Assembly: GCA_024280015.1 (NCBI GenBank) | Contig: JAJRQY010000115.1 | Coordinates: 1 to 54,058 of the forward strand | DNA length: 54,058 nt | DNA from: Actinomycetes bacterium | GTDB lineage: Bacteria; Actinomycetota; Acidimicrobiia; Acidimicrobiales; SZUA-35 | Direction of reading: 5' to 3' | Shown: positions 7,270 through 45,187 of the stretch, one piece after another | Numbering within the stretch: position 1 is the stretch's first letter | Layout: each line of letters starts with the position of its first letter | Position numbers and translations under genes: made by a program | Notes under the pieces: model-generated | Databases searched by the model: none | What the model saw: only the letters and a program-made list of their open reading frames with translations | What the model was told of the DNA's origin: nothing

Positions 7270-8337
7270 CTACATGGGAACCGCTGGCTGATGACGATGC
7301 TTCTTGCGAGACAAGGTGAAGGAGAACACCAAGGCAAGAAGGAGTACGGCTCCCTTGACAACATCTTGCAAGTAGAACGGGTAGCCGCGAATTGTGGTGC
7401 CGGTGATCAGGATCCCCATGAGTACCGCTCCAAGGGCGGTGCCAAGAGCATTCGGTCGATTGGCCCCAAGCACCGAGGTTCCGATCAGGGCGACGGCAAT
7501 GCCGTCGAGCAGGAGGGAGGCACCGGCGCTGATATCGCCTTGCCCAATTCGTGAGGAGAGAATGAGGCCCGAGATGGACGCCATGACACCCGAGATCATG
7601 TAGGCACCAGCCTTGTACAGGCCAACTTTCACGCCAGCCAAGCGAGCTGCTTCGGGGTTGGAACCAATGGCGTACATGACCCGCCCCCATTTGGTGTGAG
7701 TCAAGAAGAACCACATGACGATGGTAAGAATAGCCATGAGAATGGCCGGGTAAGGAACAGGACCGACAAAGCCTCTGTCCAGTTTCAAGAAGCCCTCGGT
7801 GAACTTGCCTGGTGCGACGGTGCCGTCACGAAGGATGAGCCCAGATGACACCGATTGCCCGTCCACGGGTATGAGTTTGAGCCCCTGAATACTGAACATC
7901 ATGGCCAGTGTTGCTAGAAGGTCGGGGATTTTCAGAACCACGATCAAGAAGGCGTTCATTGCGCCGATCAAGAGCCCGCCAACAAGCACCGCTCCAACCG
8001 CCAGGGGGGCACTCTGTGCGTAGATGACCATGGTCATGGCCGAGATCGTGACCGACATGCCAGCCGTCGAACCAACCGAAAGGTCCAGCCCTCCAACAGT
8101 CATGGCCGTTGTGATTCCCAGACCCGTGATAGCGACCACCGATGTGAACTTCATCATCGAGAAGAAGGTGGTCTCGAGACGAAATGCTGGCTCGGTCCAG
8201 TAGAAGAAGGCATAGAACAAGATGGTGACGATGATGAAGCCGTAGCGAACGGCGAACTCGCGCGCCGAGAAAGCTCGCGTGGCTGCTGGAGCCAAACCCT
8301 TGGTGCCCGTCGTGTCAGTGTTTGCTGTGGTTGACAA
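7270..8337 (-). CDS. Sugar ABC transporter permease (RbsC/LsrC type)
   Basis: Inner-membrane permease of about 355 residues with some 8-10 hydrophobic helices and the family sequence GLDLSVGSTAGMS, characteristic of ribose/AI-2 type importers (BPD_transp_2). An upstream extension of the frame would overlap the ATPase gene by about 120 bp, so I place the start at the TTG at 8337, 14 nt after the ATPase stop and behind GGAAGAAG; this start is uncertain. Only one permease gene is present, as in Rbs systems and unlike the LsrC/LsrD pair, so a homodimer is expected. Substrate is inferred from the operon to be a pentose or 5-deoxypentose. Confidence 0.88.
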   Translation of the reverse strand: MSTTANTDTTGTKGLAPAATRAFSAREFAVRYGFIIVTILFYAFFYWTEPAFRLETTFFSMMKFTSVVAITGLGITTAMTVGGLDLSVGSTAGMSVTISAMTMVIYAQSAPLAVGAVLVGGLLIGAMNAFLIVVLKIPDLLATLAMMFSIQGLKLIPVDGQSVSSGLILRDGTVAPGKFTEGFLKLDRGFVGPVPYPAILMAILTIVMWFFLTHTKWGRVMYAIGSNPEAARLAGVKVGLYKAGAYMISGVMASISGLILSSRIGQGDISAGASLLLDGIAVALIGTSVLGANRPNALGTALGAVLMGILITGTTIRGYPFYLQDVVKGAVLLLALVFSFTLSRKKHRHQPAVPM

Positions 8338-8350
8338 GTTCTTCTTCCAA

Positions 8351-9850
8351 TCAACTGGTAACGAGGGAGTCGAGGATCTCTTCTCGGCTCGTTTGTGACA
8401 AATACGTATCGTGTTGGATCTCTCCGTCAACAAGGACAAGGACCCGGTCTGCTGCTTGCATGATTTCTTCAAGGTCGCTGCTCATCAGGATGACTGCTGA
8501 GCCTGCCTTGGCCACCTCACGAACCCTCACAACAAGGTCATGCCGGGCTCCAATGTCCACGCCTTGGAACGGCTCATCAAGAATCATGACCGCCGGTTGC
8601 TCCTTGAGCCAGCGACCAACGACCACCTTCTGCTGATTTCCCCCAGATAGTGCAATCACCGGATCCTTGGCCGAGTTGGCAACAACACCAAAGCTCTTAA
8701 TCACGTCCTCACCAACGTCGTGCTCGCTCTTCGCGTTCAGTACTCCAAGGGAGGAAACTGCCGAGAGGAAAGGAAGACTCGACGTGCGAGCAATCGACCA
8801 GTCTCCAACCAGGGTTCCGGCCGCCCGATCCTCCGGGACCATGAACACCTCAGCCTTGATGGCAGCGGATGGTGAGCGTGGTGAGTACGGACTGTCATTC
8901 AAGGTCATGGCCCCAACCTTGAACGGGGCAGCCCCAAACATGCCACTGGCCAACTCGGTCTTTCCTGCTCCAAGGAGTCCAAAGACTCCGGTTACTTCGC
9001 CAGCCCGAAAGGTGACGTGGAGCGGATCTGCTTTTGGCAAGAGCTGAACACCTTGGAGGGCCAAGACGTCCGATGTTCCTTGCATTTCGTCGTTTCGTTC
9101 CTCGGTCTCGGCGCGGGTTTGGCCGAGCATGTCATCAAGGGCCGAGGACCATTCGAATGGCGGTTCATAGCGACCGCGGATCTGGCCATCTCTCAGGACG
9201 ACCAATTCGTCGGCGATTCGGTCGATTTCTCGGAGCCGGTGAGAGACGTAGAACACGCCGACACCAGCTTCAGTTAGCTGCTCGATCACTTCGAACAGCC
9301 GATCCGCTTCTGCTTTAGAGAGCGCCGAAGTCGGTTCGTCGAGAATGAGTAGTCGGGGCTTACGAACTAATGCTCTGGCTAGCAACAGAAGCTGCTGATC
9401 GGCAAGAAGCAGATCATCAACGTCACCCTTGAACTGGGCATCGGTCCATCCCAGATCCAGGATCGAAGCCATCTCCTTGGCTTTAGGAAGCAATGACCTC
9501 GAAGAAGCAAACCGCGAGGTTTCGTTGGTCACGATCTCATCAAAGAGAAGATTCGCAGCCACGCTTAGCCCGGGAATGACCCCATCGCTGATCTTCTGGT
9601 GGACTGCTTCAATCCCAAGTCGCCTGGCTGTTCCTGGCGAGTCAACGGTGATGGGGGCACCATCAAGGGAAATGGTGCCCCCATACTCATGTACACCAGA
9701 CAGGACCTTGATAACGGTTGACTTGCCTGCTCCGTTCGCCCCGAGGAGGGCAGTTACCCTCCCCGGTTCGAAGTCGAGATCGACTCCTCGGAGCACCTGG
9801 TTGGTGCCAAACGACTTCGTAATGTCGCGCAGCTCAAACATCGACGTCAT
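8351..9850 (-). CDS. Sugar ABC transporter ATPase, two-domain (RbsA/LsrA type)
   Basis: Cytoplasmic ATPase of 499 residues made of two fused nucleotide-binding domains, typical of ribose/AI-2 importers. Domain 1 has Walker A GANGAGKS (37-44) and LILDEPTSALS. Domain 2 has a degenerate P-loop GLLGAGKTE near residue 287 and LSGGNQQKVVVGRWL near 400, followed by MILDEPFQGVD. The first domain lacks a standard LSGGQ signature, showing LLLADQQLLLLARAL instead, a common asymmetry in this subfamily. It lies between the binding-protein and permease genes with short gaps, so the three are one transport unit. Confidence 0.92.
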   Translation of the reverse strand: MTSMFELRDITKSFGTNQVLRGVDLDFEPGRVTALLGANGAGKSTVIKVLSGVHEYGGTISLDGAPITVDSPGTARRLGIEAVHQKISDGVIPGLSVAANLLFDEIVTNETSRFASSRSLLPKAKEMASILDLGWTDAQFKGDVDDLLLADQQLLLLARALVRKPRLLILDEPTSALSKAEADRLFEVIEQLTEAGVGVFYVSHRLREIDRIADELVVLRDGQIRGRYEPPFEWSSALDDMLGQTRAETEERNDEMQGTSDVLALQGVQLLPKADPLHVTFRAGEVTGVFGLLGAGKTELASGMFGAAPFKVGAMTLNDSPYSPRSPSAAIKAEVFMVPEDRAAGTLVGDWSIARTSSLPFLSAVSSLGVLNAKSEHDVGEDVIKSFGVVANSAKDPVIALSGGNQQKVVVGRWLKEQPAVMILDEPFQGVDIGARHDLVVRVREVAKAGSAVILMSSDLEEIMQAADRVLVLVDGEIQHDTYLSQTSREEILDSLVTS

Positions 9851-11106: not shown

Positions 11107-12045
11107 GTGACATCCCGGGCGTCAGACCGCCATGAACTCATTCTGCGCTGTGCGTGGCTCTACCACGATGACCACCTCACCCAGGAGCAGATAGCAGAAC
11201 GGTTCAACATCTCGCGATCAACCGTGAGTCGAGCCCTAAGCGAAGCAGAGCGTTTGGGCATCGTCCGAGTTGTCATCACCGAGCCCTTGCCCGAAGCACT
11301 CCGACTGGAGACAGCCCTAACTGAGCGGTACGGGGTGACCTCCATTGTTGGGATCTCACAAAGCGGGGACGACCCAAGGCAAGCCGCTGGGCGCGCAGCA
11401 GCCAGGACACTGGAAACACTGGTGCTTCAGGATGACATCACCATCGCCATGGGCTGGGGGCGGACGCTGGCGGCCATGCTGCCCTATCTCCAACCCAGAA
11501 AAACTCGCAGCGTCACCATTGTCGGCGCCATTGGCCATGCGCTGTCCAATGAGCCAACCCGTTCCCTCTCCGTTGTCCAAGAACTTGGCACCAAGTTCTC
11601 AGCTGAAGTTCAGTGGGTCCCCGCTCCCTTGTATTCCATTGGTAGCGAACTCACCCAAGCGCTTGTAAACAATGTTGCCGTTGCCCGTGTCTTGAGCCGA
11701 GCACGAAATGCTGACGTCATCTTTGCCAGTATCGGCCAAGCTGAACTCACCAATCCTCTCATCGCCAAGGGCATGCTTACCCCGAAGGTGATGAAGCAAA
11801 TCCTTCGCAAGGGAGGGGTTGGCGACATCCTGGCCAACTTCTATGACGCCTCCGGGAACGAGGTCATCATTCCCGAGTTCGAACCGGTCGGGTTGCGCCT
11901 GGACGACGTGCGCTCCGCTAATCGAGTCATCGGGGTTGCCGCGGGAATCGAACGGGTCCCGGCCATCCAGGCAGCTCTGGCCGCGGGCTTCGTCTCCGAG
12001 CTCATCACCGACGACAAGACGGCTGAAGCTCTGTTAGTCGGATGA
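11107..12045 (+). CDS. SorC/DeoR-family sugar-binding transcriptional regulator (LsrR-like)
   Basis: Regulator of 312 residues with an N-terminal helix-turn-helix (about 22-50: LTQEQIAERFNISRSTVSRAL) and a C-terminal SorC sugar-phosphate-binding domain (GYGVTSIVGIS-like start, GWGRTLAAML, VNNVAVAR, IGVAAGIERVPAIQAAL). LsrR of the AI-2 system belongs here. It is divergent from the importer/catabolic operon and likely senses a phosphorylated intermediate of it. The start is a GTG only 6 nt after a good -10 (TAGAAT, 11095-11100), with no ribosome site, so the message is probably leaderless. Confidence 0.9.
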   Translation: MTSRASDRHELILRCAWLYHDDHLTQEQIAERFNISRSTVSRALSEAERLGIVRVVITEPLPEALRLETALTERYGVTSIVGISQSGDDPRQAAGRAAARTLETLVLQDDITIAMGWGRTLAAMLPYLQPRKTRSVTIVGAIGHALSNEPTRSLSVVQELGTKFSAEVQWVPAPLYSIGSELTQALVNNVAVARVLSRARNADVIFASIGQAELTNPLIAKGMLTPKVMKQILRKGGVGDILANFYDASGNEVIIPEFEPVGLRLDDVRSANRVIGVAAGIERVPAIQAALAAGFVSELITDDKTAEALLVG

Positions 12046-20382: not shown

Positions 20383-21393
20383 CTAGAGATAGAACCCCGG
20401 GCCCATGGCCAGGGTTGGGGCTCCTGCCTTGGCCGCCATCAAGGCCAACCAATCATGAGCAATGGTGGCGGCGGCGATGGCGGTGATCTCCGCCTGGTCA
20501 TAGGCCGGTGCTACTTCAACCAGGTCCATTCCCACAAAATCTAGGTCACCGAGACCCCGCAGAATGCCGAGGGCCACGGACGAACTCAGCCCGCCAGGCA
20601 CCGGTGTTCCCGTTCCAGGAGCAAAGGCTGGATCCAAGCAATCAATGTCAAAGGTCAGGTAGGCCTTGGATTCTCCGACGACCTCCAGGGCTTTGGCCAC
20701 AGTGACTTCGATGCCGTTTCGCTGAACCCATGGGGCGGTCAGAATCGTAAATCCATGGGCATCATCGTTGGCCGTTCGGATTCCGATCTGGACCGAGCGG
20801 GCGGGGTCGATGAGGCCTTCCCGGGCTGCCCGCAGAAACATCGACCCGTGGTCCAGACGTTCTCCGTCATCTGGCCAGGTGTCGCTGTGGGCATCAAAGT
20901 GGACAAGGGCCAGAGGGCCGTGTTTCTTGGCGTGAGCACGAAGCAAGGGATAGGAGACAAAGTGGTCGCCACCAAAGGTAAGCATCTTGGCCCCGGACGC
21001 CAAGATGGTGTCGGCGTGAGCTTCTACCGCCTCGACCACATTCTGGGGGAATCCAGAGTCCAGGTAGCAGTCGCCGTAGTCCACCACCTTGAGATGGTCG
21101 AACACGCTGAAACCGTGCGGAAACGAGTCCAGTTCGGCCACCTGCGTCGAAGCAGCCCGAATGGCTCGAGGACCAAGCCGGGCACCTGCTCGATTGGTTG
21201 TAGCCGAGTCGAAGGGAATGCCAGACACGGCGATATCAACCTGATGAAGATCTCGGGTATAGCGCCTGCGCATGAACGAAAGAGCACCGGCAAAGGTCAT
21301 CTCACCCCAGCTTCCGTCGTCAGAGTCGCTGCGGAAGGCAAAGTCACCCTTGTTCGGATCGCTCGGTTGATCCCGCTGGTCGTTCGTATCCAT
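20383..21393 (-). CDS. speB: Agmatinase/arginase family ureohydrolase
   Basis: Ureohydrolase of 336 residues, probably releasing urea from agmatine to make putrescine. The binuclear manganese ligands are in GGDH (141-144), FDAHSD (166-171) and DIDCLDPAFAPG near 248. An N-terminal GIPFD-ATTNRAGARLGPRAIR matches agmatinase-type enzymes. The extended N-terminus (about 45 residues) and GSMF contact loop leave open guanidinobutyrase or related guanidino substrates. It lies a few kilobases from the polyamine operons, which fits putrescine supply, but it is a separate transcription unit. Confidence 0.82.
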   Translation of the reverse strand: MDTNDQRDQPSDPNKGDFAFRSDSDDGSWGEMTFAGALSFMRRRYTRDLHQVDIAVSGIPFDSATTNRAGARLGPRAIRAASTQVAELDSFPHGFSVFDHLKVVDYGDCYLDSGFPQNVVEAVEAHADTILASGAKMLTFGGDHFVSYPLLRAHAKKHGPLALVHFDAHSDTWPDDGERLDHGSMFLRAAREGLIDPARSVQIGIRTANDDAHGFTILTAPWVQRNGIEVTVAKALEVVGESKAYLTFDIDCLDPAFAPGTGTPVPGGLSSSVALGILRGLGDLDFVGMDLVEVAPAYDQAEITAIAAATIAHDWLALMAAKAGAPTLAMGPGFYL

Positions 21394-24940: not shown

Positions 24941-25141
24941 GTGAACGAAGCAAATGTGGAGAGAATTGGTCGTTTGGCCGTCGGAGTCGTGTTATTGATT
25001 CTTGGCTTCACCGCCTTGAACGGAATCCTGGCCGTAATTGCCGTCATTGCTGGTCTGATTCTCACCGTGACCGGAGCTGTCGGATGGTGCCCCATCTACT
25101 CCCTTCTCAAAATCGGAACCCGCAAAGTAACTGGCGCGTGA
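24941..25141 (+). CDS. DUF2892 small membrane protein
   Basis: Protein of 66 residues with two hydrophobic segments and the DUF2892 pattern NVERIGRLAVGVVLLILG...VTGAVGWCPIYSLLKI. This domain forms the membrane half of YgaP, where it is fused to a rhodanese; here it stands alone with one Cys in GWCP. GTG start with AGGAG 6 nt upstream. Its stop overlaps the GTG start of a thioredoxin-like gene, so a joint redox or sulfur-handling role is likely but unproven. Confidence 0.85.
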   Translation: MNEANVERIGRLAVGVVLLILGFTALNGILAVIAVIAGLILTVTGAVGWCPIYSLLKIGTRKVTGA

Positions 25142-25614
25142 ATCCACCTCGCAGCACAACCGGTGTGCCGCAAGGCTCATCAGTTGTGCTGGTTACCACG
25201 CCCCACTGTCCTCATTGTCGCTCCATCCGGAGCCACATTGAGGCAGTGGCGGGTGCTGGATTCGATCAGGTACACGGGGTGAGCTTTGTTGAAGTTTCCG
25301 CTCCGGACTCCCCCGACCTAGCGACCGACCTAAAGATCAAGGCGGCACCGACCTTGCTGGCTTTCCGAGATGGAGAAGAACTCACTCGCCATGTTGGCGC
25401 CGGTGGCGAATCCGATGTCCAGCGGGTCTTTGATGCCGCCTCTGGTGCCGCCACGTCCGTGCGCCGCTTCTCAATCTCGTCTGAGAGCCGCTGGATCCGG
25501 ACCGGGCTCGGCGCGGTTTTGCTAGCGGCCGGAGCAATCACCAGCGTGATCTGGCTGGTTCTCCTTGGCGTGGTCTTCCTCGCTTCTGGCTGGTACGACC
25601 ACGTCCTTCGCTAG
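25138..25614 (+). CDS. Thioredoxin-like protein with C-terminal membrane anchor
   Basis: Protein of 158 residues. The N-terminal thioredoxin-like half has the active-site motif CPHC (Cys24-Cys27) preceded by VVLVTTPH, a cis-Pro region KAAPTLLAF and GEELTRHVGA. The C-terminal 45 residues form two close hydrophobic helices, so the thioredoxin half is anchored, most likely facing the cytosol because there is no signal peptide. The GTG start at 25138 overlaps the DUF2892 stop (GTGA). CPHC is the DsbA-type dipeptide, suggesting an oxidising or disulfide-exchange role. Confidence 0.8.
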   Translation: MNPPRSTTGVPQGSSVVLVTTPHCPHCRSIRSHIEAVAGAGFDQVHGVSFVEVSAPDSPDLATDLKIKAAPTLLAFRDGEELTRHVGAGGESDVQRVFDAASGAATSVRRFSISSESRWIRTGLGAVLLAAGAITSVIWLVLLGVVFLASGWYDHVLR

Positions 25615-25728: not shown

Positions 25729-26880
25729 CTACCCCTTGGCCTCGATGAAGGCATCGGAGAAGTTCGTCTCATAAGTCCCGGTATCGCCAATGAACTCCAG
25801 CTTGGAGGTGTCGGTCGGATAGACGATTGGATCCTCCAGGACCTCAGGATCGATGAACTCCAGTGCTGCCTTGTTCGGGCTGGCATAGAAGTTCCAGTTG
25901 GTCAGCGCAGCCCCATTCTCGGCATCGAGAATGAAGTTCAGGAATGTATGGGCTGAGCATGGATGCGGGGCATCGGCGACAACCATCATGTTGTCAACCC
26001 ACCGGGTTCCTCCCTCATCAGGGACGAAGTAGGTGTAGTTGTCCGGATTCTCGGCTTCGCCGAACTGCACAATGAAGTTGCCACTGAACCCATGGGCCAG
26101 CGTCGTGTCGCCACTGACGAGAAGTTCGTCATATTGGTCAGAGTCAAACGCCGTGAGCCAGCTCGTTGCTTCTTTGACCAGAGCGGTTGCTTCAGCGAGC
26201 TCAGCCTCATCGGTCGAGTTGAGCGAATAGCCAAGGTATTTCAGTGCCGCCCCGAGTGTCTCACGAGGGTCATTCAAAAGCGTGGCCGATCCGGCAATGC
26301 CATATTCTGCGGCCAGCTCTTGATCAAAGATCAGTCCCCATGTGTGAGGAACATCTTCTCCGACAACCGAAAGATCGAGACCAAGACCAGTGGTTCCCCA
26401 CTGGTAGGCAACGGAATAGTCACCGTTGGGGTCATAGGGCAGACCCTTAGCGAACGCCGGATCCAGGTTCGCCATGTTGGGAATGGCATCCTTGTTCAGC
26501 TTCATCACCGATGTCTCACCCGCCTCAGCGGCATCAATCAGGATCGACACCATGTAGTCAGAGGGCACGATCACGTCGTGACCAGAGTTGCCTGCCATGA
26601 TGATCGGCTGCATTGCCTCATTGGAGTCAAAGAATGACTCAATGACCTTGATTCCTGCTTCGGCTTCAAAGGCAACAATCAGTTCCGGATCGATGTACTC
26701 AGTCCAGTTGTAGAGCGATAGGTCGCCATCAGTCTGACCGGGTGTGCATTCTGCGCCGGCTGCGACCTCTGGTGACCCACCGTCGCCAGAACTTGCTCCG
26801 TCACTACTACTGCCGCAACTGGCAGCAACGAGCCCAAAGGCTACGAGCCCGATACCTACACGGATCTTGAAACTTTTCAT
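25729..26880 (-). CDS. potD: Spermidine/putrescine-binding lipoprotein
   Basis: PotD-like binding lipoprotein of 383 residues. Signal with lipobox VAAS-Cys22, then LSLYNWTEYIDPELIVAFEAEAGI, the typical PotD/PotF opening, and later SDYMVSILIDAAEAG, YQWGTTGLGLDLSVVGE and WVDNMMVVADAPH. The ATG at 26880 has GGGGAGG 6 nt upstream and gives a normal signal peptide. Last gene of the operon headed by the class III aminotransferase. Polyamine specificity is inferred from family and from the neighbouring polyamine enzymes. Confidence 0.9.
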   Translation of the reverse strand: MKSFKIRVGIGLVAFGLVAASCGSSSDGASSGDGGSPEVAAGAECTPGQTDGDLSLYNWTEYIDPELIVAFEAEAGIKVIESFFDSNEAMQPIIMAGNSGHDVIVPSDYMVSILIDAAEAGETSVMKLNKDAIPNMANLDPAFAKGLPYDPNGDYSVAYQWGTTGLGLDLSVVGEDVPHTWGLIFDQELAAEYGIAGSATLLNDPRETLGAALKYLGYSLNSTDEAELAEATALVKEATSWLTAFDSDQYDELLVSGDTTLAHGFSGNFIVQFGEAENPDNYTYFVPDEGGTRWVDNMMVVADAPHPCSAHTFLNFILDAENGAALTNWNFYASPNKAALEFIDPEVLEDPIVYPTDTSKLEFIGDTGTYETNFSDAFIEAKG

Positions 26881-26932
26881 TCTTTTCCTCCCCTTGCTCA
26901 TGCACTTTCGTCGCACTCGCTTGGTTGATACT

Positions 26933-27847
26933 TCAATTGATGGACATTTCGCTCAGGCTCGACGAGCCTGATGAGACTTCTTGATCATCGTCTTCATTCT
27001 CGTCATTCACTTTTTGGTCTTTGTCTTCACTATTTCGTTGGGCAAGCAGCGACAGCATTACCAATAAAACTGAGGCGACAAGCATGACAACCGAGACGGC
27101 ATTGATGAGTGGGCTCACACCCTTGCGGATGAGCCCGAAAACGTAGACCGGTAGAGTAGTCGAACCTGGCCCAGAGACGAATTGAGCGATGACAACGTCG
27201 TCCAAGGAGAGGGTCAACGCCAGCAGGGCACCACCAGCAATGCCGGGAATGATCTGCGGAAAGGTGACGAACCTGAACGCCTTCCAGCGACTGGCGTAGA
27301 GGTCACTGGCTGCCTCCTCAAGACGCTGGTCCATACCTTCGAGCCGAGCTCGAACGACGATGGAAACGAAGCTGATGTTGAAGGCAATGTGGCTGATAAT
27401 GACCGTACTGATGTCTTTGGACAGCGTGAGCCCAAGGACCGAGTCAATCACGTTGAAGAACTGGCTGAAAAACATCAACAACATCACCGCCATAGTGACG
27501 TCGGGAATGATAATTGGCAGGTAAAGCAGGGCGTCAAAGACTTTCTGACCACGAAACTTAAACCGCTCCAGGGCCAGCGCCGCAAGGGTTCCAAGGACAA
27601 CCGATACCAGGGTAGAGACGATGGCAACCTGTACCGAGACCCAAAGTGCACCCTGCACATTGTCATCCTTGGCAAAGGCCCGATACCAATCGAGCGTGAA
27701 CCCGCCCCAGCGACCAACGAGCTTGTCACCCGAGAACGAATAGACAACAAGCAGGATGATCGGGGCATAGAAGAACAGGTAGACCAGCCACGCATTGGCG
27801 GTCAGAAAAGCCTTGGAAAAACCTCGAGGATCGGTCGTGCTGCTCAC
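26933..27847 (-). CDS. potC: Polyamine ABC transporter permease C
   Basis: Permease of 304 residues with about six membrane helices and the EAA-type loop LEEAASDLYASRWKAFRFVTFPQIIPGI. Matches PotC/PotI: N-terminal YLFFYAPIILLVVYSF and LSLDDVVIAQFVSGPGSTTLPVYVFGLIRKG. An acidic, Ser-rich C-terminal tail (about 30 residues) is unusual. Start overlaps the upstream potB stop by 4 bp. Confidence 0.92.
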   Translation of the reverse strand: MSSTTDPRGFSKAFLTANAWLVYLFFYAPIILLVVYSFSGDKLVGRWGGFTLDWYRAFAKDDNVQGALWVSVQVAIVSTLVSVVLGTLAALALERFKFRGQKVFDALLYLPIIIPDVTMAVMLLMFFSQFFNVIDSVLGLTLSKDISTVIISHIAFNISFVSIVVRARLEGMDQRLEEAASDLYASRWKAFRFVTFPQIIPGIAGGALLALTLSLDDVVIAQFVSGPGSTTLPVYVFGLIRKGVSPLINAVSVVMLVASVLLVMLSLLAQRNSEDKDQKVNDENEDDDQEVSSGSSSLSEMSIN

Positions 27848-28740
27848 AGCGTTTTGCCATCCTTGCGGAAGTAGATGATCGTGGTGATCAGCATCACGAT
27901 CATCAGAACCATGGACAATGCCGCACCAGCGGGCCAGTTCCTGGCAGTCAAGAATTGGGTCACGATATAGCTACCGAGCAGGGTCGTCTTGGCTCCTCCG
28001 AGAAGTTCGGGGGTGACATAGGCTCCCAGGCTGGGGATGAACACCAGGATTGATCCAGCAATGACGCCGGGCATAGATAAGGGGAGAATGATCTTGCGGA
28101 ACGATGTCCAGCCGCTTGCATACAAATCTCGGCTTGCTTCAACCAGTCGCCAGTCAATCCGCTCAATCGAGGCATAGAGCGGCAGGACCATGAAGGGTAG
28201 ATAGCCATAGACCAAACCAAGTACGACGGCTGTTGGCGTAAACAAGATCGAAGTCTCCCCAAGGCCTACCGCTTCGGTGGCCTGAGAAAGTGGTCCCCCA
28301 TTTCCCAGGAGTACACGCCACGCATAGTTGCGGACAAGGAAGTTTGTCCAGAACGGAATCATCACGAATACCAGCATGATATTTCGGACCGACTCCTTCC
28401 TCGTCGCCAAGTAGTACGAGAAGGGATACGCGAAGATCAGGCAGATCACGGTGGTTATAAACGCAAGGAACAGGGACCGGTAGAGGATGTCGCGGACGAT
28501 CGGCTCCCCCAAGCGGCGGTAGGAATCAAGATTCCATCCGGAAAGATCGGTCCCGCCGAAACGGTTTCTGGTGGCGAAGGAATAGATGGCAACAATGACA
28601 AGCGGCGTGGCGAAGAAGAGCGTGAGAAACCCGAGAGCAGGCAAAGCAAGAAGAAATCCTCGGCGTGAGTCGGCTCGTTCTGCCGCCTTCTCTAGTTCAG
28701 GAGTTACTGGGCTTCCATTGACTGATTCCGTGTCGACCAC
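27844..28740 (-). CDS. potB: Polyamine ABC transporter permease B
   Basis: Permease of 298 residues with about six membrane helices, PotB/PotH type: FFATPLVIVAIYSF, MIPFWTNFLVRNYAWRVLLG and the ATPase-contact loop LVEASRDLYASGWTSFRKIILPLSMPGVIAG. It partners PotC in the membrane channel. Start overlaps the potA stop by one base. Confidence 0.93.
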   Translation of the reverse strand: MVDTESVNGSPVTPELEKAAERADSRRGFLLALPALGFLTLFFATPLVIVAIYSFATRNRFGGTDLSGWNLDSYRRLGEPIVRDILYRSLFLAFITTVICLIFAYPFSYYLATRKESVRNIMLVFVMIPFWTNFLVRNYAWRVLLGNGGPLSQATEAVGLGETSILFTPTAVVLGLVYGYLPFMVLPLYASIERIDWRLVEASRDLYASGWTSFRKIILPLSMPGVIAGSILVFIPSLGAYVTPELLGGAKTTLLGSYIVTQFLTARNWPAGAALSMVLMIVMLITTIIYFRKDGKTL

Positions 28741-29816
28741 TAGTTGTCCACCACCCAGACACCATCGCTATGCCAACTAATGAGAACCGAGTCGCCCGCA
28801 TTGAAATGACCGCGACTTGGTCGGTTCTCCTCCCGGACCTCGATCTCCATCCAATCCATAGCAATCCGGTACGAGTGAGCTGTCCCGAGATAGGTCACAC
28901 TTGAGACCACGCCCTCAAGTGATGGGCCATCAGGTTTGTCATCCAGCGCGTGCACATTGATTCGTTCTGGTCGGAGGCTGACCGCAACCTTGGCACCCTC
29001 GGCCTTGTCATTGGCAACCGACACGCGAGCACCGTTGGCCAGGCACACTGTCTCGGCATCTTCAACGGTGCCTTCCAACAGGTTCGTTTGACCGATGAAG
29101 TCAGCCACAAATCGATTGGCTGGACGTTCGTACATATTCTCGGGCGATGCGACCTGAAGAAACTTGCCGTCATGCATAACAGCAATACGGTCACTCAAGG
29201 TCAGAGCTTCCTCCTGATCATGAGTGACAAAGACGAAGGTGATTCCAACTTCTCGCTGCAGGCTCTTCAGTTCGATCTGCATCTCCTGGCGAAGCTTCAG
29301 GTCAAGAGCTCCGAGAGGTTCATCCAACAACAGAACCTTGGGGCGGTTCACCAGGGCGCGAGCCAGGGCAATACGTTGTTGCTGACCCCCGGAAAGCTGA
29401 TTGGGCTTTCTCTTAGCCATCTGGCCAAGTCGCACCATCTCGATTGCTTCTTGCGCCCGCTTGTTGGCCTCCGCCTTGTCAACCTTCTGCATTCGCAATC
29501 CGAAGGCAACGTTGTCCAGAACAGTCATGTGCGGGAACAACGCGTAGTTCTGGAAGACCGTGTTGACCGGGCGCTTGTTCGGCGACAGGGTGCCCATCTC
29601 TTCGCCATAGATCCGCAGGCTTCCTTCGGTTGGAAACTCAAGGCCAGCAATCATGCGAAGGGTTGTCGTCTTGCCGCACCCCGATGGGCCAAGTAGGGCA
29701 AAGAACTCACCATCTTCAATCCGCAAGTCAATAGAATCAACAGCGGTGACGTCAGCCCCAAAGCGTTTGGTCAGCCCTTGTAACTCAACGGCGGCCGCAA
29801 TCTCTTCTTCAGCCAT
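28740..29816 (-). CDS. potA: Polyamine ABC transporter ATPase
   Basis: PotA ATPase of 358 residues. Walker A GPSGCGKT (43-50), signature LSGGQQQRIALARAL, Walker B VLLLDEPLGALD and switch His in FVTHDQEEAL. A C-terminal TOBE regulatory domain follows (FIGQTNLLEGTV onward). One-base overlaps with both the Lrp-type regulator gene and potB show tight operon packing. Confidence 0.95.
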   Translation of the reverse strand: MAEEEIAAAVELQGLTKRFGADVTAVDSIDLRIEDGEFFALLGPSGCGKTTTLRMIAGLEFPTEGSLRIYGEEMGTLSPNKRPVNTVFQNYALFPHMTVLDNVAFGLRMQKVDKAEANKRAQEAIEMVRLGQMAKRKPNQLSGGQQQRIALARALVNRPKVLLLDEPLGALDLKLRQEMQIELKSLQREVGITFVFVTHDQEEALTLSDRIAVMHDGKFLQVASPENMYERPANRFVADFIGQTNLLEGTVEDAETVCLANGARVSVANDKAEGAKVAVSLRPERINVHALDDKPDGPSLEGVVSSVTYLGTAHSYRIAMDWMEIEVREENRPSRGHFNAGDSVLISWHSDGVWVVDN

Positions 29817-30274
29817 CAGATGATTCCCCAGTCATAGGTCTGCTTAACCAGTCGAAGGTACGACATGATCTCGGTGCTGATCACATCTGGAGTGGCCCGG
29901 ATTTGGGTACCCACAATTTCAAGAAGGTCATCGGCGTCTCGGCAGAACAGTTCCACGATCATGTCGTAGCGGCCAGCAGTAATAACGACATAGTCGGCGT
30001 TATCAATCTGGGCGATCTTCTCTGCCACCACTTGGGGATCACCTTGCACTCGCACCCCGACCATTGCCTGGTATCCGTAGCCCATCTTGATCGGATCAGT
30101 CACGGCGACAATTTGCATGACCCCGCGCTCAATCATGCGATTGACTCGCTGACGGGTAGCGGCCTCGGACAGGCCAACAGCCGAAGCAAGTTTGGAGTAC
30201 GGGAGACGGCCATCGGCCTGTAGACCCCGGAGAATGGACTTATCGAACTCATCCAACTGGTTCTCGGACTTCAT
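29816..30274 (-). CDS. Lrp/AsnC-family transcriptional regulator
   Basis: Regulator of 152 residues: N-terminal winged helix-turn-helix (FDKSILRGLQADGRLPYSKLASAVGLSEAATRQRVNRM, about 9-46) and a C-terminal RAM ligand-binding domain (MVGVRVQGDPQVVAEKIAQI...AGRYDMIVELFCRDADDLLEIV). Encoded inside the polyamine uptake operon, between the aminotransferase and potA. The perfect 29-bp palindrome at the head of this operon is its most likely target; the ligand could be a polyamine or an amino acid product. Confidence 0.92.
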   Translation of the reverse strand: MKSENQLDEFDKSILRGLQADGRLPYSKLASAVGLSEAATRQRVNRMIERGVMQIVAVTDPIKMGYGYQAMVGVRVQGDPQVVAEKIAQIDNADYVVITAGRYDMIVELFCRDADDLLEIVGTQIRATPDVISTEIMSYLRLVKQTYDWGII

Positions 30275-30275
30275 A

Positions 30276-31700
30276 TCACCTGTCCATCTCGGCCATGGCC
30301 TCGGTGAGCGACTGACGAAGAATCTGATTCATCTCTTCAAACTGTTCGGGTCCCGCTATCAACGGCGGTGAAAGTTGGATCACGGTTTCGCCACGACTGT
30401 CGGCCCGACATATGAGCCCAAGCTCAGCCATGCGCAGGGACAAGAAACCTCTGAGCAGGTTGTTGGCTTCTTCCTCACTGAAGCTTTCCTTAGTGTCGCG
30501 ATTCTTGACCAACTCAATGCCGTAGAAATAGCCCTTGCCGCGAACGTCACCCACGATGGGCAGATCCAGTAGATTCTCCAAGGCCGAGCGAAAGCCATCC
30601 TCGTTGGCGCGGACGTGTGCGTAAAGGTCTTCGCCTTCGATGATGTCGAGGTTGGCTAGCGCGACCGCGCACGAGACCGGGTGGCCGGCAAAAGTGAAGC
30701 CGTGGAGGAAGGGATGCTCGTCGCCCATGAAGGCTTCAGCCAGCCGGTCACTCACGATCATCGCACCTAGTGGCGCGTAGCCCGAGGTAATGCCCTTGGC
30801 CGTGGTGATGATGTCGGGCTGGTATCCCAGTCTTTCTGATCCGTACATGGCTCCGAGACGACCGAAGGCGCAGATGACTTCATCGGAGACAAAGAGCACA
30901 TCATGGCGGTCACAAATTTCGCGTACCCGGTCGAAGTAGCCGTCGGGGGAGGTGATGCAACCACCCGAGTTCTGTACAGGCTCCAGGAAAACGGCGGCGA
31001 CGCTGTCGGCCCCTTCTCGCAAAATCATCCGCTCGATGTCATCGGCGCAACTAAGAGTGCACGACGGTGAAGCTGAGCAATAGTCGCAGCGGTACTCATA
31101 GGTGTTGGCCACCTTGAAGGCGCCACCAAGCAAGGGTTCAAAGGGCAGACGAAGAGCAGGGACGCCGGTGAGGGACAAGGCGCCCATTGTCGTTCCGTGA
31201 TAGGCCAGGGTGCGACTCAGGATCTTGGTCTTACCCGGCTTGCCGGTGAGCTTGAAATATTGGCGAGCCAGCTTGATGGCAGATTCCACCGCTTCGGAAC
31301 CCCCACTGGTGAAGAAGACACGGTTCAGATCACCGGGCGCCCCCTTGGCCAGTCGAGCAGCAAGTTCAATCCCCTTGGGATGGGCGTGAGTCCAAAGTGG
31401 ATAGAAGGCCAGCTTCTCCGATTGCTCGGCTGCCGCACGAGCAAGCTCGGCCCGGCCATAGCCGACCTGGGTGGTATAGAGCCCGGCTAGGCCATCGAGG
31501 TAGCGCTTGCCTTGATCGTCCCAGACATAGCATCCCTCACCCCGCTCGATGATCGGCATCCCATCGACCCCGTGGCCGAGACTGGAGAAGTGACCCCAGA
31601 GATGACGGTCGGCCAATTCGCTGAGGCTAGCTTTTGGGTCGATTTCACCCAGGGGTGAGGAAGACTCTGCCCGCGTGGCGGGCGTCACATCGGTAGTCAC
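30276..31700 (-). CDS. Class III aminotransferase, probably putrescine/omega-amino acid:pyruvate
   Basis: PLP enzyme of 474 residues, fold type I class III. Visible are DGLAGLYTTQVGYGR near 70, SGGSEAVESAIKLARQY, YHGTT, FLEPVQNSGG, VSDEVICAFGR and the PLP lysine in TTAKGITSGY. It resembles putrescine- or taurine-type pyruvate transaminases (SpuC group). Start is GTG without a clear ribosome site. As first gene of the lrp-pot operon it most likely removes an amino group from imported putrescine. A Cys-rich insertion (YRCDYCSASPSCTLSCADD) around residue 210 is unusual for the family and could bind metal. Confidence 0.85.
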   Translation of the reverse strand: MTTDVTPATRAESSSPLGEIDPKASLSELADRHLWGHFSSLGHGVDGMPIIERGEGCYVWDDQGKRYLDGLAGLYTTQVGYGRAELARAAAEQSEKLAFYPLWTHAHPKGIELAARLAKGAPGDLNRVFFTSGGSEAVESAIKLARQYFKLTGKPGKTKILSRTLAYHGTTMGALSLTGVPALRLPFEPLLGGAFKVANTYEYRCDYCSASPSCTLSCADDIERMILREGADSVAAVFLEPVQNSGGCITSPDGYFDRVREICDRHDVLFVSDEVICAFGRLGAMYGSERLGYQPDIITTAKGITSGYAPLGAMIVSDRLAEAFMGDEHPFLHGFTFAGHPVSCAVALANLDIIEGEDLYAHVRANEDGFRSALENLLDLPIVGDVRGKGYFYGIELVKNRDTKESFSEEEANNLLRGFLSLRMAELGLICRADSRGETVIQLSPPLIAGPEQFEEMNQILRQSLTEAMAEMDR

Positions 31701-31726
31701 ACGACGAATTCAACACTACTTTCTCT

Positions 31727-31755
31727 GATAAATCAACTGAATCAGTTGATTTATC
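31727..31755. promoter_or_regulatory. Perfect 29-bp palindrome between divergent polyamine operons
   Basis: Arms of 14 nt (GATAAATCAACTGA and its exact complement) around a central A. It is AT-rich in a GC-rich region and lies 26 bp from the aminotransferase start and 27 bp from gabT. The rightward arm ends in TTGATT (31746-31751), which with 17-bp spacing to AAGAAT (31769-31774) gives a gabT promoter. Regulator binding here could control both operons; the local Lrp/AsnC protein is the prime candidate. Confidence 0.75.
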
Positions 31756-31782
31756 CCTCGGATGTCGTAAGAATGCGTTGCT

Positions 31783-33135
31783 ATGAGCACATCCATCAAG
31801 CTGCAAACAGCCATTCCTGGGCCCAGAAGTGAGGCCCTTGTTGCCCGCCGGGCGGCGGCCACCTCCAGCGGAGCTGCCTACCTCACCCAGGTTGCGGTTG
31901 AATCGGCCGAAGGCTGTGTAGTCACTGATGTTGACGGCAACCAGTTGTTGGATTTCGCCGGTGGTATTGGTGTTCTTGCCCTTGGGCATTGCCCACCAAC
32001 GGTCACCACCGCGGTGCAGGAACAAACCAGCAAGCTGATGCACATGTGTGCCATCGTCGCCACCTATGAACCCTACGTCGAGGTGGCCGAACGACTAAAC
32101 CAAATTACGCCCGGTGATTTCGCCAAGAAGACCATGCTGGCCAATACCGGAGCCGAAGCAGTCGAATCAGCCATCAAGATGGTTCGCGTCGCCACTGGTC
32201 GTCAGGCCATCCTGGTCTTTGAGGGCGGCTACCACGGCCGCAGCAACCTGACTCTGGCCATGACCTCCAAGTACGGCCTGTTCAAGAAGGGATTCGGCCC
32301 CTTTGCCTCGGAGATCTACCGGGTGCCCTTCCCCAACACCTTGCGTCGCCCTCCTGGCATGGACATTGACACCTTCATCCAGTGGTCCAACAAACAGCTT
32401 CGCGATTCCCTGATTGCCCAAATCGATCCCGGTGAACTGGCTGCCATTGTCATCGAGCCGGTACAAGGTGAAGGTGGCTTCGTGCCTGCCCCGGCCTCCT
32501 TCCTGCAGACAATCCGAGACATTTGCGACGAGAACGGAATTGTCATGGTGGCGGACGAGATCCAGTCGGGCTGTGGTCGAACCGGCAAGATGTTCGCCAT
32601 CGAGCACGCCGAGGTCGTTCCCGATCTCATCACCACCGCTAAGTCTCTGGCATCAGGAATGCCTCTGGCCGCAGTCACTGGCCGGGCAGAGGTCGTGGAT
32701 GCCCCTCACCCCGGAGGCATGGGTGGCACCTACACCGGCAACCCGGTGGCCTGTGTCGCCGCAATCGAGTCACTCAAGATCATTGATACCCCAGAGTTTT
32801 TGGCCCGAGCGACCGAGATCGGCGAGCGAATGCGCGCTGGTCTCGGGGCCATTGCTGCCAAGTATCCCGACCACATTGTTGACATTCGCGGCCTCGGACC
32901 GATGTTGGCTATCGAGCTGGTAAAGGATCCCGAAACCCTCGAACCAGACCCGGACGTCACTCTGGCCATCACCAAGGCCGCCCTGGCCCATGGTCTCATC
33001 ATCATTCGGGCTGGCCTCTACAGCAATTGTGTCCGCTTCCTGCCACCGCTGGTGGTGAGCGATGATCAGATCGACGAGGCAATGTCGGTGCTAGCGAAGT
33101 CTGTTGATGAAGCAGCAGCCGAACATTGGTCTTGA
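31783..33135 (+). CDS. gabT: 4-aminobutyrate aminotransferase
   Basis: GabT-type class III aminotransferase of 450 residues, moving the amino group of GABA to 2-oxoglutarate. Typical segments are FAGGIGVLALGHCPP, ANTGAEAVESAIKMVR, FEGGYHGRSNLTLAMTSK, VIEPVQGEGGFVPAP, VADEIQSGCGRTGKMFA and the PLP Lys in TTAKSLASGMPL. The ATG lies 8 nt after the -10 and has no ribosome site, so leaderless translation is likely. First gene of the plus-strand operon that continues with a C45 hydrolase, a GNAT and an FAD oxidase. Confidence 0.92.
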   Translation: MSTSIKLQTAIPGPRSEALVARRAAATSSGAAYLTQVAVESAEGCVVTDVDGNQLLDFAGGIGVLALGHCPPTVTTAVQEQTSKLMHMCAIVATYEPYVEVAERLNQITPGDFAKKTMLANTGAEAVESAIKMVRVATGRQAILVFEGGYHGRSNLTLAMTSKYGLFKKGFGPFASEIYRVPFPNTLRRPPGMDIDTFIQWSNKQLRDSLIAQIDPGELAAIVIEPVQGEGGFVPAPASFLQTIRDICDENGIVMVADEIQSGCGRTGKMFAIEHAEVVPDLITTAKSLASGMPLAAVTGRAEVVDAPHPGGMGGTYTGNPVACVAAIESLKIIDTPEFLARATEIGERMRAGLGAIAAKYPDHIVDIRGLGPMLAIELVKDPETLEPDPDVTLAITKAALAHGLIIIRAGLYSNCVRFLPPLVVSDDQIDEAMSVLAKSVDEAAAEHWS

Positions 33136-33177: not shown

Positions 33178-34266
33178 ATGAAGCTGCCACCGATTCGTGT
33201 CCTCGACCTGACCGGGTCACCAGAAGAGATGGGCCAGACCCACGGCTCTGCCTATGGCGAACAGATTCGCCAGTACACCCAAGAGCGAGTCGAGCTTGCC
33301 AGCTCGGCCTTGTGGACTGGTGGTTCACTCAGCCAGGCCGACGTGCTGGAGATAGCCGAGGGCATGCTCGCCGCTCACGAATCATTCTCGCCCCCACTCC
33401 ATGCCGAGATGATGGCCATGGCCAAGGCTGCTGGCATCACGCCGGCCGAAGCAATCATTGTTGGCGGCTTCACTGACTTCATCGATACTGTCCGAGCCGA
33501 AGTTGGTGGCCAGGTCCCCGAATCGGTGCAAGAGGATGACTGCACTGCAGTCATCATTCCCGACCAGCGGGCCGATGGTGCAGGATTTCTGGCCCAGACA
33601 TGGGATATGCATGACAGTGCGACCAAGCATGTGATCTTGCTGCGAATCCAGCCTGATGATGCTCCGGCCTCCCTCATCTTCACCACCGGTGGCGCACTGG
33701 CCCAGCTCGGCATGAACGAGCATGGCGTCTGTGTTGGCATCAACAATCTGACAGCAACCGATGGCCAACGAGGGGTGACCTGGCCGACTGTTGTCCGTGA
33801 GGCTCTGAACCAGCAATCGGCAGCGGCAGCACGAGATGTGATCCTCAATGCTGACCTGGCTGGCGGTCACAACTTTCATCTCTTTGACGCCATGGGAGAT
33901 GGCTACAGCATCGAAGCAATGCCAACTGTTCGTCCGGTTGAAACGCTGGATCAAGCGGCCATTGTTCGAACCAATCACACCCTCAGCCCCGAGGCCGGTG
34001 AGGTCGAAGGTGCCAAGGCGCCAGAGATGATGGCGAGTTCGCGACTTCGATTGCAAACAGGAATTGACCTAGTCGACCGTGCGGGCATCACCGCAGATGA
34101 CCTGATGGAACTCACCCGAGAGCCAACGGCGATCTGCCAAGTCCCGGTCGAGCCCTATCACATCGAGTCCAGCGGGGCGGCCGTCATGCGACCAAAGACC
34201 AAGGAGTTCTGGGCCTGCTGGGGACAGCCAGCATGCAATGACTACCAACTCATCGAGTTCCCGTAG
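33178..34266 (+). CDS. C45 (acyl-CoA:6-APA acyltransferase-like) Ntn hydrolase
   Basis: Protein of 362 residues of the C45/AAT family, self-processing N-terminal-nucleophile hydrolases that cut or form amide bonds. The expected cleavage site is before Cys122 in EDDCTAVII, giving chains of about 121 and 241 residues; downstream FLAQTWDMHD and GMNEHGVCVGINNL match the family. In a GABA/polyamine operon an amidase acting on N-acyl-GABA or N-acyl-polyamine, in the place PuuD takes in the glutamylated pathway, is an attractive inference. Confidence 0.82.
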   Translation: MKLPPIRVLDLTGSPEEMGQTHGSAYGEQIRQYTQERVELASSALWTGGSLSQADVLEIAEGMLAAHESFSPPLHAEMMAMAKAAGITPAEAIIVGGFTDFIDTVRAEVGGQVPESVQEDDCTAVIIPDQRADGAGFLAQTWDMHDSATKHVILLRIQPDDAPASLIFTTGGALAQLGMNEHGVCVGINNLTATDGQRGVTWPTVVREALNQQSAAAARDVILNADLAGGHNFHLFDAMGDGYSIEAMPTVRPVETLDQAAIVRTNHTLSPEAGEVEGAKAPEMMASSRLRLQTGIDLVDRAGITADDLMELTREPTAICQVPVEPYHIESSGAAVMRPKTKEFWACWGQPACNDYQLIEFP

Positions 34267-34309: not shown

Positions 34310-34939
34310 GTGCCGGAGATCACCTACACCAATCTGAATGAAAAATACGCCGAGGCTCTCGCTGCTCTCGAACTCGTGGTCTTTCCTAGCATCGACCCTT
34401 CTGACCTGTATGACGAGGTTGAACTTCGTCGCCTAGCCCAGGTCTTTCCTGAAGGGAACTTCGTTGCCCTGGATGGGGACAAGCCAGTAGGAATGGGCCT
34501 TGGGGTACTTGTCGACTTCGACTTCGACCATTCCGAACACGCCCTCTCCGATGTGCTGGGCAGTGATGGGGTCAGCAACCATCACCTGGACAATGACTGG
34601 TACTACGGAACCGACATCAGTGTGCTCCCCGACTACCGAGGCCTAGGCATCGGCCGCCAGCTCTATCAGCTTCGCAAGGATGCCGTTCGCCGAATGGGCA
34701 AGAAAGGAATCGTGGCTGGCGGCGTCATCCCCGGCTACGCCGAACACCTGGGGCAGATGACAGCCGCTGAATACATCGACAAGGTCGTCGCTGGCGAGCT
34801 GTATGACTCGACGCTCTCATTCCAACTGAGCAATGGCTTTGAGACTCATGGGCCAATCCCCAACTATGTCATCGACGAGTCCGTTGGCCACAATGCAGTG
34901 CTCATTGCCTGGCCAAACCCCGATCTCGTTGATGCCTAA
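34310..34939 (+). CDS. GNAT-family N-acetyltransferase
   Basis: GNAT of 209 residues, transferring an acyl group from acyl-CoA to an amine. The acetyl-CoA pyrophosphate loop is RGLGIG (110-115) after the strand YYGTDISVLPDY. The start of the fold (VFPEGNFVALDGDKPVGMGLG) resembles the GNAT half of nitrilase-fused proteins such as YhcX, but no nitrilase is fused here. GTG start with GAGG upstream; 44 bp after the C45 gene and 3 bp before the oxidase gene. N-acylation of putrescine or another polyamine is inferred from context. Confidence 0.82.
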   Translation: MPEITYTNLNEKYAEALAALELVVFPSIDPSDLYDEVELRRLAQVFPEGNFVALDGDKPVGMGLGVLVDFDFDHSEHALSDVLGSDGVSNHHLDNDWYYGTDISVLPDYRGLGIGRQLYQLRKDAVRRMGKKGIVAGGVIPGYAEHLGQMTAAEYIDKVVAGELYDSTLSFQLSNGFETHGPIPNYVIDESVGHNAVLIAWPNPDLVDA

Positions 34940-44290: not shown

Positions 44291-45187
44291 TCAGCTTTCA
44301 TTCAACCATCGGGCAATGGCCTCGCCAATTTCGTGGGGACTGTCTTCCTGGATGAAGTGGCTGCCACTGACTGTTACCTCGGTTTGATTGGCCCAGGTCC
44401 GGCAGAATTCGCGCTGTTGGCCAGTCAAGATCGAGCCCGGGTCGGCGTTGATGAAGAGCTTGGCTACATCGCTGGTTGGGAGCCAATCGGCATAACTGCG
44501 CACAATCTCGGTCACATCGGCTGGCTGGCCCTCGATGGGGATCTCTCGGGGCCAGGTCAAGGTCGGGCGTCGGTCGTCTCGATTCAGGAATGGGCGACGA
44601 TATTCGTTGTGCTCAGTGTCACTCAACCCTCGAAGCACCGAAGCGGGAAGGATCGCTTCGACGAACAAGTTCTTGTCCATCACCATTGATTCGCCAGCAT
44701 CAGAGCGCATGGCCTTGAAGATATCGGTGGCGGCTTCGGGCCAATCCTCCCAGGTCATTGGTTGCACGATGGACTCCATATAGACAATCCCAGCAACTCG
44801 ATCCTGGTGGCGATGTGCCCAATCGAATCCGAGGGCAGAACCCCAATCATGGACCACCAGTGTCACCGAGTCGCCCAGGTCCAGCTGGTCGAGAAACGCG
44901 TCAAGGTACTCACGATGGTGAACAAATCGATAGGAGTCTGGCCCAGTGTCATCCAGCTTGTCCGAATCACCCTGCCCGATCAGATCGGGGGCGACACAGC
45001 GGTGGGTCTCGCTTAGGTGAGGGATGATGTTTCGCCAGAGGTAGGACGAGGTTGGGTTGCCGTGGAGGAACACAATCGGGTCCCCCTCCCCCACCTCGTG
45101 GTAGGCCATCTGCTTTCCAAGCACCGTGGCGTGGGCCTTTGCCAGGGGTGTGGTGCTAATGAAGTCGCTTGTCGGGTCAGGTTCCAT
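44291..45187 (-). CDS. Haloalkane dehalogenase (LinB/DhaA type)
   Basis: Alpha/beta hydrolase of 298 residues with a complete haloalkane dehalogenase active site: nucleophile Asp114 and halide-binding Trp115 (VVHDWGSALGF), halide-stabilising Asn44 (LHGNPTSSYLWR), acid Glu138 (YMESI) and base His277 (SGSHFIQEDSP). Spacing is six residues shifted from LinB for the first four, which marks subfamily II. It would hydrolyse a carbon-halogen bond to an alcohol; the natural substrate is unknown, though marine organohalides are plausible. Confidence 0.92.
   Translation of the reverse strand: MEPDPTSDFISTTPLAKAHATVLGKQMAYHEVGEGDPIVFLHGNPTSSYLWRNIIPHLSETHRCVAPDLIGQGDSDKLDDTGPDSYRFVHHREYLDAFLDQLDLGDSVTLVVHDWGSALGFDWAHRHQDRVAGIVYMESIVQPMTWEDWPEAATDIFKAMRSDAGESMVMDKNLFVEAILPASVLRGLSDTEHNEYRRPFLNRDDRRPTLTWPREIPIEGQPADVTEIVRSYADWLPTSDVAKLFINADPGSILTGQQREFCRTWANQTEVTVSGSHFIQEDSPHEIGEAIARWLNES

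Follow-up and report, generated by a model that had tools for sequence, protein, structure and literature searches.

Results

A perfect palindrome between two divergent polyamine operons

The window, meaning the whole 54,058-nucleotide stretch of DNA analysed here, contains two divergent operons separated by a gap of 82 bp. To the left of the gap, on the minus strand, lies the operon AT1-Lrp-PotABC-SBP, and to the right, on the plus strand, the operon GabT-C45-GNAT-DAO. The facing start codons, GTG at 31700 (minus) and ATG at 31783 (plus), lie 41 and 42 bp from position 31741, the centre of a perfect palindrome that we call O1. The genes of the two operons are listed below.

25729-26916, minus: PotD/PotF-like solute-binding protein (SBP); best models PotF and PotD, under cut-off
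26933-27847, minus: PotC-like permease; best model PotC, under cut-off
27844-28740, minus: PotB-like permease; best model PotB, under cut-off
28740-29816, minus: PotA-like ATP-binding protein; TIGR01187, 399.8 bits, above cut-off
29816-30274, minus: Lrp/AsnC-family regulator, proposed binder of the operator array; PF13404, 56.2 bits, and PF01037, 35.6 bits, both above cut-off
30276-31700, minus: AT1, class III aminotransferase (PRK06541 model), candidate polyamine aminotransferase; NF005102, 723.6 bits (cut-off 574)
31783-33135, plus: GabT-like 4-aminobutyrate transaminase; TIGR00700, 508.6 bits, above cut-off
33178-34266, plus: C45 family autoproteolytic acyltransferase/hydrolase; NF040521, above cut-off
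34310-34939, plus: GNAT acetyltransferase; PF00583
34942-36387, plus: FAD-dependent oxidoreductase (DAO family), candidate amine oxidase; PF01266

A sequence-only reading of this DNA had placed the palindrome between two divergent polyamine/GABA operons, one of them carrying an Lrp/AsnC gene, and the gene annotation agrees. The regulator gene is the second of the left operon and encodes an AsnC-type helix-turn-helix together with an Lrp ligand-binding domain; its recognition-helix region, GLSEAATRQRV, is kept in relatives. No regulator other than Lrp was found in the two operons. About 10 kb from the palindrome, a frame at 20383-21393 (minus) resembles the agmatinase/arginase family, as judged by eye, and might supply putrescine to the same pathway.

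O1 spans 31727-31755 and reads GATAAATCAACTGA-A-TCAGTTGATTTATC. Its two 14-bp arms (31727-31740 and 31742-31755) are 100% complementary around a 1-nt centre, and its 15-bp core is CAACTGA-A-TCAGTTG (31734-31748). A palindrome with 14 of 14 matched pairs and a 1-nt centre is expected 0.00027 times per window by chance (57% GC), which bears out the earlier description of a perfect 29-bp palindrome that is rare by chance. The hexamer TTGATT, also reported for each arm, is present on the plus strand at 31746-31751 and on the minus strand at 31736-31731. O1 is the sole mismatch-free, short-centre inverted repeat of such length in the window, where no second match with up to three mismatches was found. 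Two further inverted repeats in the window lie inside frames: an imperfect 18-bp repeat (83%) with a 4-nt gap at 25152-25191, within frame 25084-25614, and a perfect 13-bp repeat with an 8-nt gap (ATGGGGGCACCAT) at 9651-9684, within the ABC-type ATPase frame 8351-9850.

O1 matches a motif that accompanies the Lrp gene across actinobacteria

We assembled 109 regions upstream of the operon holding the Lrp gene, taken from the genomes of relatives as well as from named actinobacteria (Mycolicibacterium, Streptomyces, Micromonospora, Frankia, acidimicrobial MAGs and others); 80 of at least 587 named loci found were used. Duplicates (L082, L125, L156), paralogous or atypical loci (L059, L069, L071, L072, L073), Lrp matches below 44% identity and regions of 100 bases or fewer were left out before counting. 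One of the omitted loci, L069, carries an 18.8-bit site. A palindromic 19-bp model, nACGACGGATTCCGTnGnC, was built from 107 of the 109 regions, with the window and G001, the only other genome of the genus, excluded. Under this model the window palindrome scores 19.8 bits. Sites of at least 12 bits occur in 82 of the 109 regions, 107 of which are training data, compared with 83 of 2180 stretches drawn at random from these loci. After removal of near-duplicates, 45 of 67 regions retain such a site.

Because most of the 109 regions had served as training data, we also trained and tested the motif across lineages, using an approximate split based on our own locus list. Sites of at least 12 bits were recovered in 43 of 64 regions (controls, 55 of 1280) and in 19 of 43 (controls, 16 of 860). 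With the motif learned only from the 64 loci that do not belong to the order-level/acidimicrobial set, whose consensus is near CAACGGAWTCCGTTG, position 31741 ranked first among 54,040 positions in the window, scoring 20.0 bits against 13.4 for the runner-up, which lies inside a coding frame. The motif from the other 43 loci again placed 31741 first, by a narrower margin (16.0 bits; next, 14.9). A strong match at 44602 (13.4 and 14.9 bits) was rejected as an operator; it falls inside frame 44291-45187 and was taken as a chance match.

The site was present in 66 of 81 regions with AT1 beside lrp and in 16 of 28 without it, and 24 of 27 divergent gaps of the polyamine gene set held one. The remaining 27 of the 109 regions have no 12-bit site, and four family or order members (L042, L044, L054 and L057) score below 5 bits despite carrying the Lrp gene. 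Upstream of the three other Lrp-like genes of the window's own genome, no such site was found (best scores -0.1, 4.8 and 2.9 bits). O1 also has the form by which Lrp/AsnC sites are defined, a (semi)palindrome of about 13-15 bp with an AT centre (PMC2995911).

O1 is the middle of a three-site array with 32-bp spacing

The sequence-only reading overlooked that the palindrome is the middle of a three-site array with 32-bp spacing. Both flanking centres, 31709 and 31773, lie 32 bp from 31741. The predicted sites and the putative promoters that overlap them are as follows.

31702-31716, no strand: predicted left flanking operator site, CGACGAATTCAACAC, centre 31709; 8.2 bits, shuffle p 0.0002, block kept in the sister species
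31708-31736, minus: putative AT1 promoter; TTGATT of the left arm, 17-nt spacer, TTGAAT at 31713-31708; TT[GA]AAT in relatives
31727-31755, no strand: O1, predicted central operator site; 19.8 bits under the motif built with the window left out, rank 1 of 54,040 with the motif from other actinobacteria
31746-31774, plus: putative GabT promoter; TTGATT of the right arm, 17-nt spacer, AAGAAT at 31769-31774; CAGAAT at the same place in G001
31766-31780, no strand: predicted, weak right flanking operator site, CGTAAGAATGCGTTG, centre 31773; -1.9 bits, shuffle p 0.01, block AGAATGCGTTG kept in the sister species

When the flanks were shuffled in 20,000 trials, the score of the left site was reached in 0.02% and that of the right site in 1%, and both together in none. 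At the right site only the outer half matches in the window; its counterpart in the sister species scores 2.4 bits. The spacing recurs across the family: among 44 non-redundant loci, 30 secondary sites of at least 6 bits were found within 60 bp of the best site, 26 of them at 31 or 32 bp and 4 elsewhere, and the only peaks of the averaged score profile are those at 31 bp (z 9.5) and 32 bp (z 5.7). Centre-to-centre distances of two or three helical turns are common among Lrp proteins (PMC2995911). In Mycolicibacterium and Mycobacterium (L084-L107), the strong site, CGACGGATTCCGTGC, leads into ACAATC a short way before an ATG, and the weaker site usually lies 31 bp upstream; relative to the gene, the two sites appear to have changed places in these mycobacterial relatives.

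The three blocks and their spacing are kept in the sister species

Of 148 related genomes searched, 32 have an Lrp match with an E-value of 1e-20 or lower, and the gene set is kept but reordered in many relatives. In G001, the sister species, the lrp-gabT gap contains AATCAACTGAATCAGTTGATT. Ungapped alignment of the window and G001 gaps on their centres revealed three shared blocks, CACGACGAATTCAACAC, (A)AATCAACTGAATCAGTTGATTT and AGAATGCGTTG, separated by spacers of equal length and diverged sequence. AT1 has been relocated in G001, and a degenerate version of the site precedes it there; the relocated promoter carries the same three blocks in weaker form. The earlier reading had counted conservation in relatives among its tests, and the retention of both blocks and spacing in the sister species provides it.

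The perfect form of the palindrome is not general. In the sister species it is perfect only in the inner 21 bp, and most relatives have imperfect palindromes. Only 2 of 39 family genomes contain the 19-bp core with one mismatch or none, each at a single place, and both belong to this genus. Elsewhere in the family, the gap before C45 in L060 has tandem AAATTCGCTGTGAYATTCAGC-like repeats (7278-7328) where the palindrome would be. A distant relative, L070, carries a different near-perfect palindrome, ATTGTCGTAG...CTACGACAAT, just upstream of AT1 (11725-11751), possibly reflecting a changed operator specificity.

The arms of O1 coincide with putative promoter elements

The arms of O1 place the -35-like TTGATT 17 bp from -10-like hexamers on both sides, so that the two divergent promoters would both lie under a bound protein. 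The left flanking site overlaps the -10-like hexamer of the AT1 side, and the right flanking site that of the GabT side. On the AT1 side, TT[GA]AAT recurs at a fixed distance from the main site: of the 25 order-level loci whose site reaches 12 bits, 12 have it, among them 11 of the 14 with AT1 as the first gene, compared with none of 57 others. The earlier proposal that TTGATT can serve as a -35 element in both directions therefore finds support in these fixed-distance hexamers on the AT1 side of relatives, whereas a sigma-70 consensus scan of 31600-31900 found no promoter. Because of this negative scan, we treat the promoter elements as putative. The GTG start of AT1 closely follows its -10-like TTGAAT, and the AT1 transcript is possibly leaderless. 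The same may hold for the GabT transcript, since its ATG lies just 8 nt past AAGAAT.

Control by the array looks local

Further copies of the palindrome in the genome had been suggested as a check, and none of note was found. Every other place in the whole genome (4.80 Mb in 175 contigs) differs from the 19-bp core pattern by three mismatches or more. With up to two mismatches allowed, the pattern CAACNGANTCNGTTG was matched 319 times forward and 407 times in the backward control, so there is no excess. One other exact match to CAACNGANTCNGTTG, L157, lies within an 827-aa frame, and the pattern matches L163 and L166 have no polyamine gene in view. Around the three-mismatch palindromic matches L004 and L005 (surroundings L074 and L075), none of the ten cluster proteins was found. 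A genome-wide regulon was therefore rejected. With no notable further copies, control looks local.

Discussion

A predicted operator that would close two promoters at once

We propose, with a probability of roughly 85%, that the palindrome is the central and strongest site of a three-site operator (31709, 31741, 31773) through which the neighbouring Lrp/AsnC protein would control both operons. The sequence-only reading, in which the local Lrp/AsnC protein governs the two operons jointly, is strengthened by the motif that tracks the family, by the site in the sister species, where it also precedes the moved AT1, and by the promoter shifts reported for EpuRII, the probable Streptomyces counterpart (PMC8998196).

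The computation shows the site, its agreement with a motif of the whole family, the regular spacing and the conservation; from these we infer binding by an oligomer, repression rather than activation, and a ligand. Lrp dimers joined in a single higher oligomer would line up along the same face of the DNA and span the whole 82-bp gap, the 32-bp spacing corresponding to about three helical turns between dimers. The palindrome arms would act as the -35-like elements of the two divergent promoters, and the flanking sites would cover the -10-like elements. With the -35 and -10 elements of both promoters covered, RNA polymerase should be excluded from both, so that the regulator's own operon (aminotransferase, Lrp and polyamine ABC transporter) and the GabT operon would be repressed together. 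A metabolite of the amine pathway could loosen or rearrange the complex and thereby end repression. Repression of at least one side is, in our estimate, modestly favoured.

The odds look about even that the site belongs to a conserved operator code of a polyamine-dedicated Lrp family across Actinobacteriota, made of 15-bp CAACNGAWTCNGTTG-type palindromes in 31/32-bp arrays. In this genus the code would have become a symmetric device, in which one palindrome provides both -35 elements of divergent, possibly leaderless promoters and one Lrp oligomer closes both. Systems of this kind are already known; what appears to be undescribed, judging from the open-licence literature searched, is the motif with its 31/32-bp rule and the symmetric layout of the promoters, and no published account was found there of this operator pattern, which many actinobacteria share. 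The analysis makes of an anonymous palindrome a testable predicted operator for a regulator family reported to bind Streptomyces polyamine promoters. With the site model and the 31/32-bp rule, targets can be predicted in mycobacteria and other actinobacteria, in which the control of polyamines has received little study. The fragment is also a compact system for asking how a single Lrp complex deals with a pair of promoters.

Alternative explanations

The same operator and protein could instead serve mainly for activation, with a central dimer beside the -35 elements recruiting polymerase to one or both promoters. BarR, bound at three regularly spaced sites, acts as a repressor of its own gene and as an activator of the divergent aminotransferase gene (PMC10201364), and Lrp proteins are capable of acting with either sign (PMC2995911). 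We nevertheless consider activation unlikely here, as the flanking sites overlap putative -10 elements on both sides, an arrangement that fits exclusion better than recruitment.

It is improbable that O1 is the operator of a different regulator encoded elsewhere, for example of the TetR, GntR or PucR type, with the Lrp gene a mere neighbour. Perfect palindromes are typical of several regulator families. There is also a precedent in Corynebacterium, where GABA use is under the PucR-type GabR (PMC7652997). However, across lineages the motif goes with the Lrp gene, arrays with 31/32-bp spacing are a typical mark of Lrp proteins (PMC2995911) and the two operons hold no other regulator gene. In the one case available, a family genome with a 73-74% identical GabT and no Lrp match at E 1e-20, the GabT gap lacks the site.

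A palindrome is by its nature an inverted repeat and could form an RNA hairpin (terminator or attenuator) or mark a recombination site or mobile-element end, yet these readings are very improbable. They were rejected in the absence of a terminator-like site; moreover, the repeat is AT-rich, has a 1-nt centre and precedes both putative start sites, the genome showed no further copies, and no integrase or transposase is among the listed frames around the palindrome. A functionless chance palindrome is scarcely plausible, for even though the outermost arm bases are unconserved in the sister species, motif, spacing and conservation agree independently, conservation already contradicts it, and the chance expectation is minute.

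Comparison with known systems

For the three-site Lrp operator that we favour, EpuRII is the nearest described regulator and BarR the nearest described architecture. EpuRII (SCO5656) of Streptomyces coelicolor is an Lrp/AsnC-family protein encoded beside the aminotransferase SCO5655 (PMC9397018). In electrophoretic mobility shift assays it is reported to shift its own promoter and those of glnA3, sco5676 (GabT-like), sco5977 and sco6960 (PMC8998196), and SCO5655 is among the polyamine genes induced by polyamines (PMC5403932). An Lrp/AsnC gene next to a polyamine aminotransferase gene (here the candidate AT1) and to other polyamine genes is found both here and at SCO5655-SCO5658 (PMC9397018); at the EpuRII locus these neighbours include aldehyde dehydrogenase and polyamine transport genes (PMC9397018, PMC8998196). 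In the Streptomyces loci of our sample, Lrp is followed by AT1, with a divergent aldehyde dehydrogenase frame, and the Lrp relatives share 54-56% identity and a matching gene order. For SCO5656 itself the comparison is one of description and gene order, and orthology to EpuRII is accordingly presumptive. In the passages on EpuRII no operator sequence was found, the one motif mentioned there concerning GlnR (PMC8998196).

The two systems differ in that here one array would serve both operons; sites are predicted here at the own and the GabT promoter alike. In five Streptomyces-type genomes the site model was run over the 800 bp preceding the matches at 11 GabT-like and 23 glutamine-synthetase-family loci. 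Sites of at least 6 bits were absent near the starts of the five best GabT homologues and of all 23 glutamine-synthetase-family genes. The result speaks against the motif carrying over simply to every EpuRII target, though the gabT and glnA3 promoters are reported to be shifted (PMC8998196). The sole distant matches were L187 (10.7 bits at -619) and L188 (7.6 bits at -755).

PuuR belongs to a protein family other than Lrp. It resembles the present system in its dedicated control of polyamine/GABA breakdown (PMC9397018), as does the Corynebacterium GabR, which is PucR-type, not Lrp (PMC7652997).

BarR of the Sulfolobales is a beta-alanine-responsive Lrp-type protein that binds three regularly spaced 15-bp semipalindromic sites in the gap between its gene and a divergent aminotransferase gene, as an octamer with the DNA wrapped (PMC10201364). 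Lrp-type control of a divergent aminotransferase gene through three sites in one gap is the feature that the present system would share. In contrast to the array described here, BarR is archaeal, its sites read TTG...CAA with an AT-rich centre, and those of Sa- and St-BarR are spaced by two helical turns (PMC10201364); barR also flanks the gap, whereas the Lrp gene of the window is the second of its operon. Ss-LrpB of Sulfolobus likewise has three sites, with about 100 bp wrapped round three interacting dimers, but it autoregulates its own gene through other sites and has no transporter-aminotransferase operon (PMC2995911).

A second Lrp gene of the sister species (43-44% identity) is grouped with GabT-like and PotABC-like genes in a cluster of its own (L072, 647-3634), which suggests paralogous Lrp-polyamine modules.
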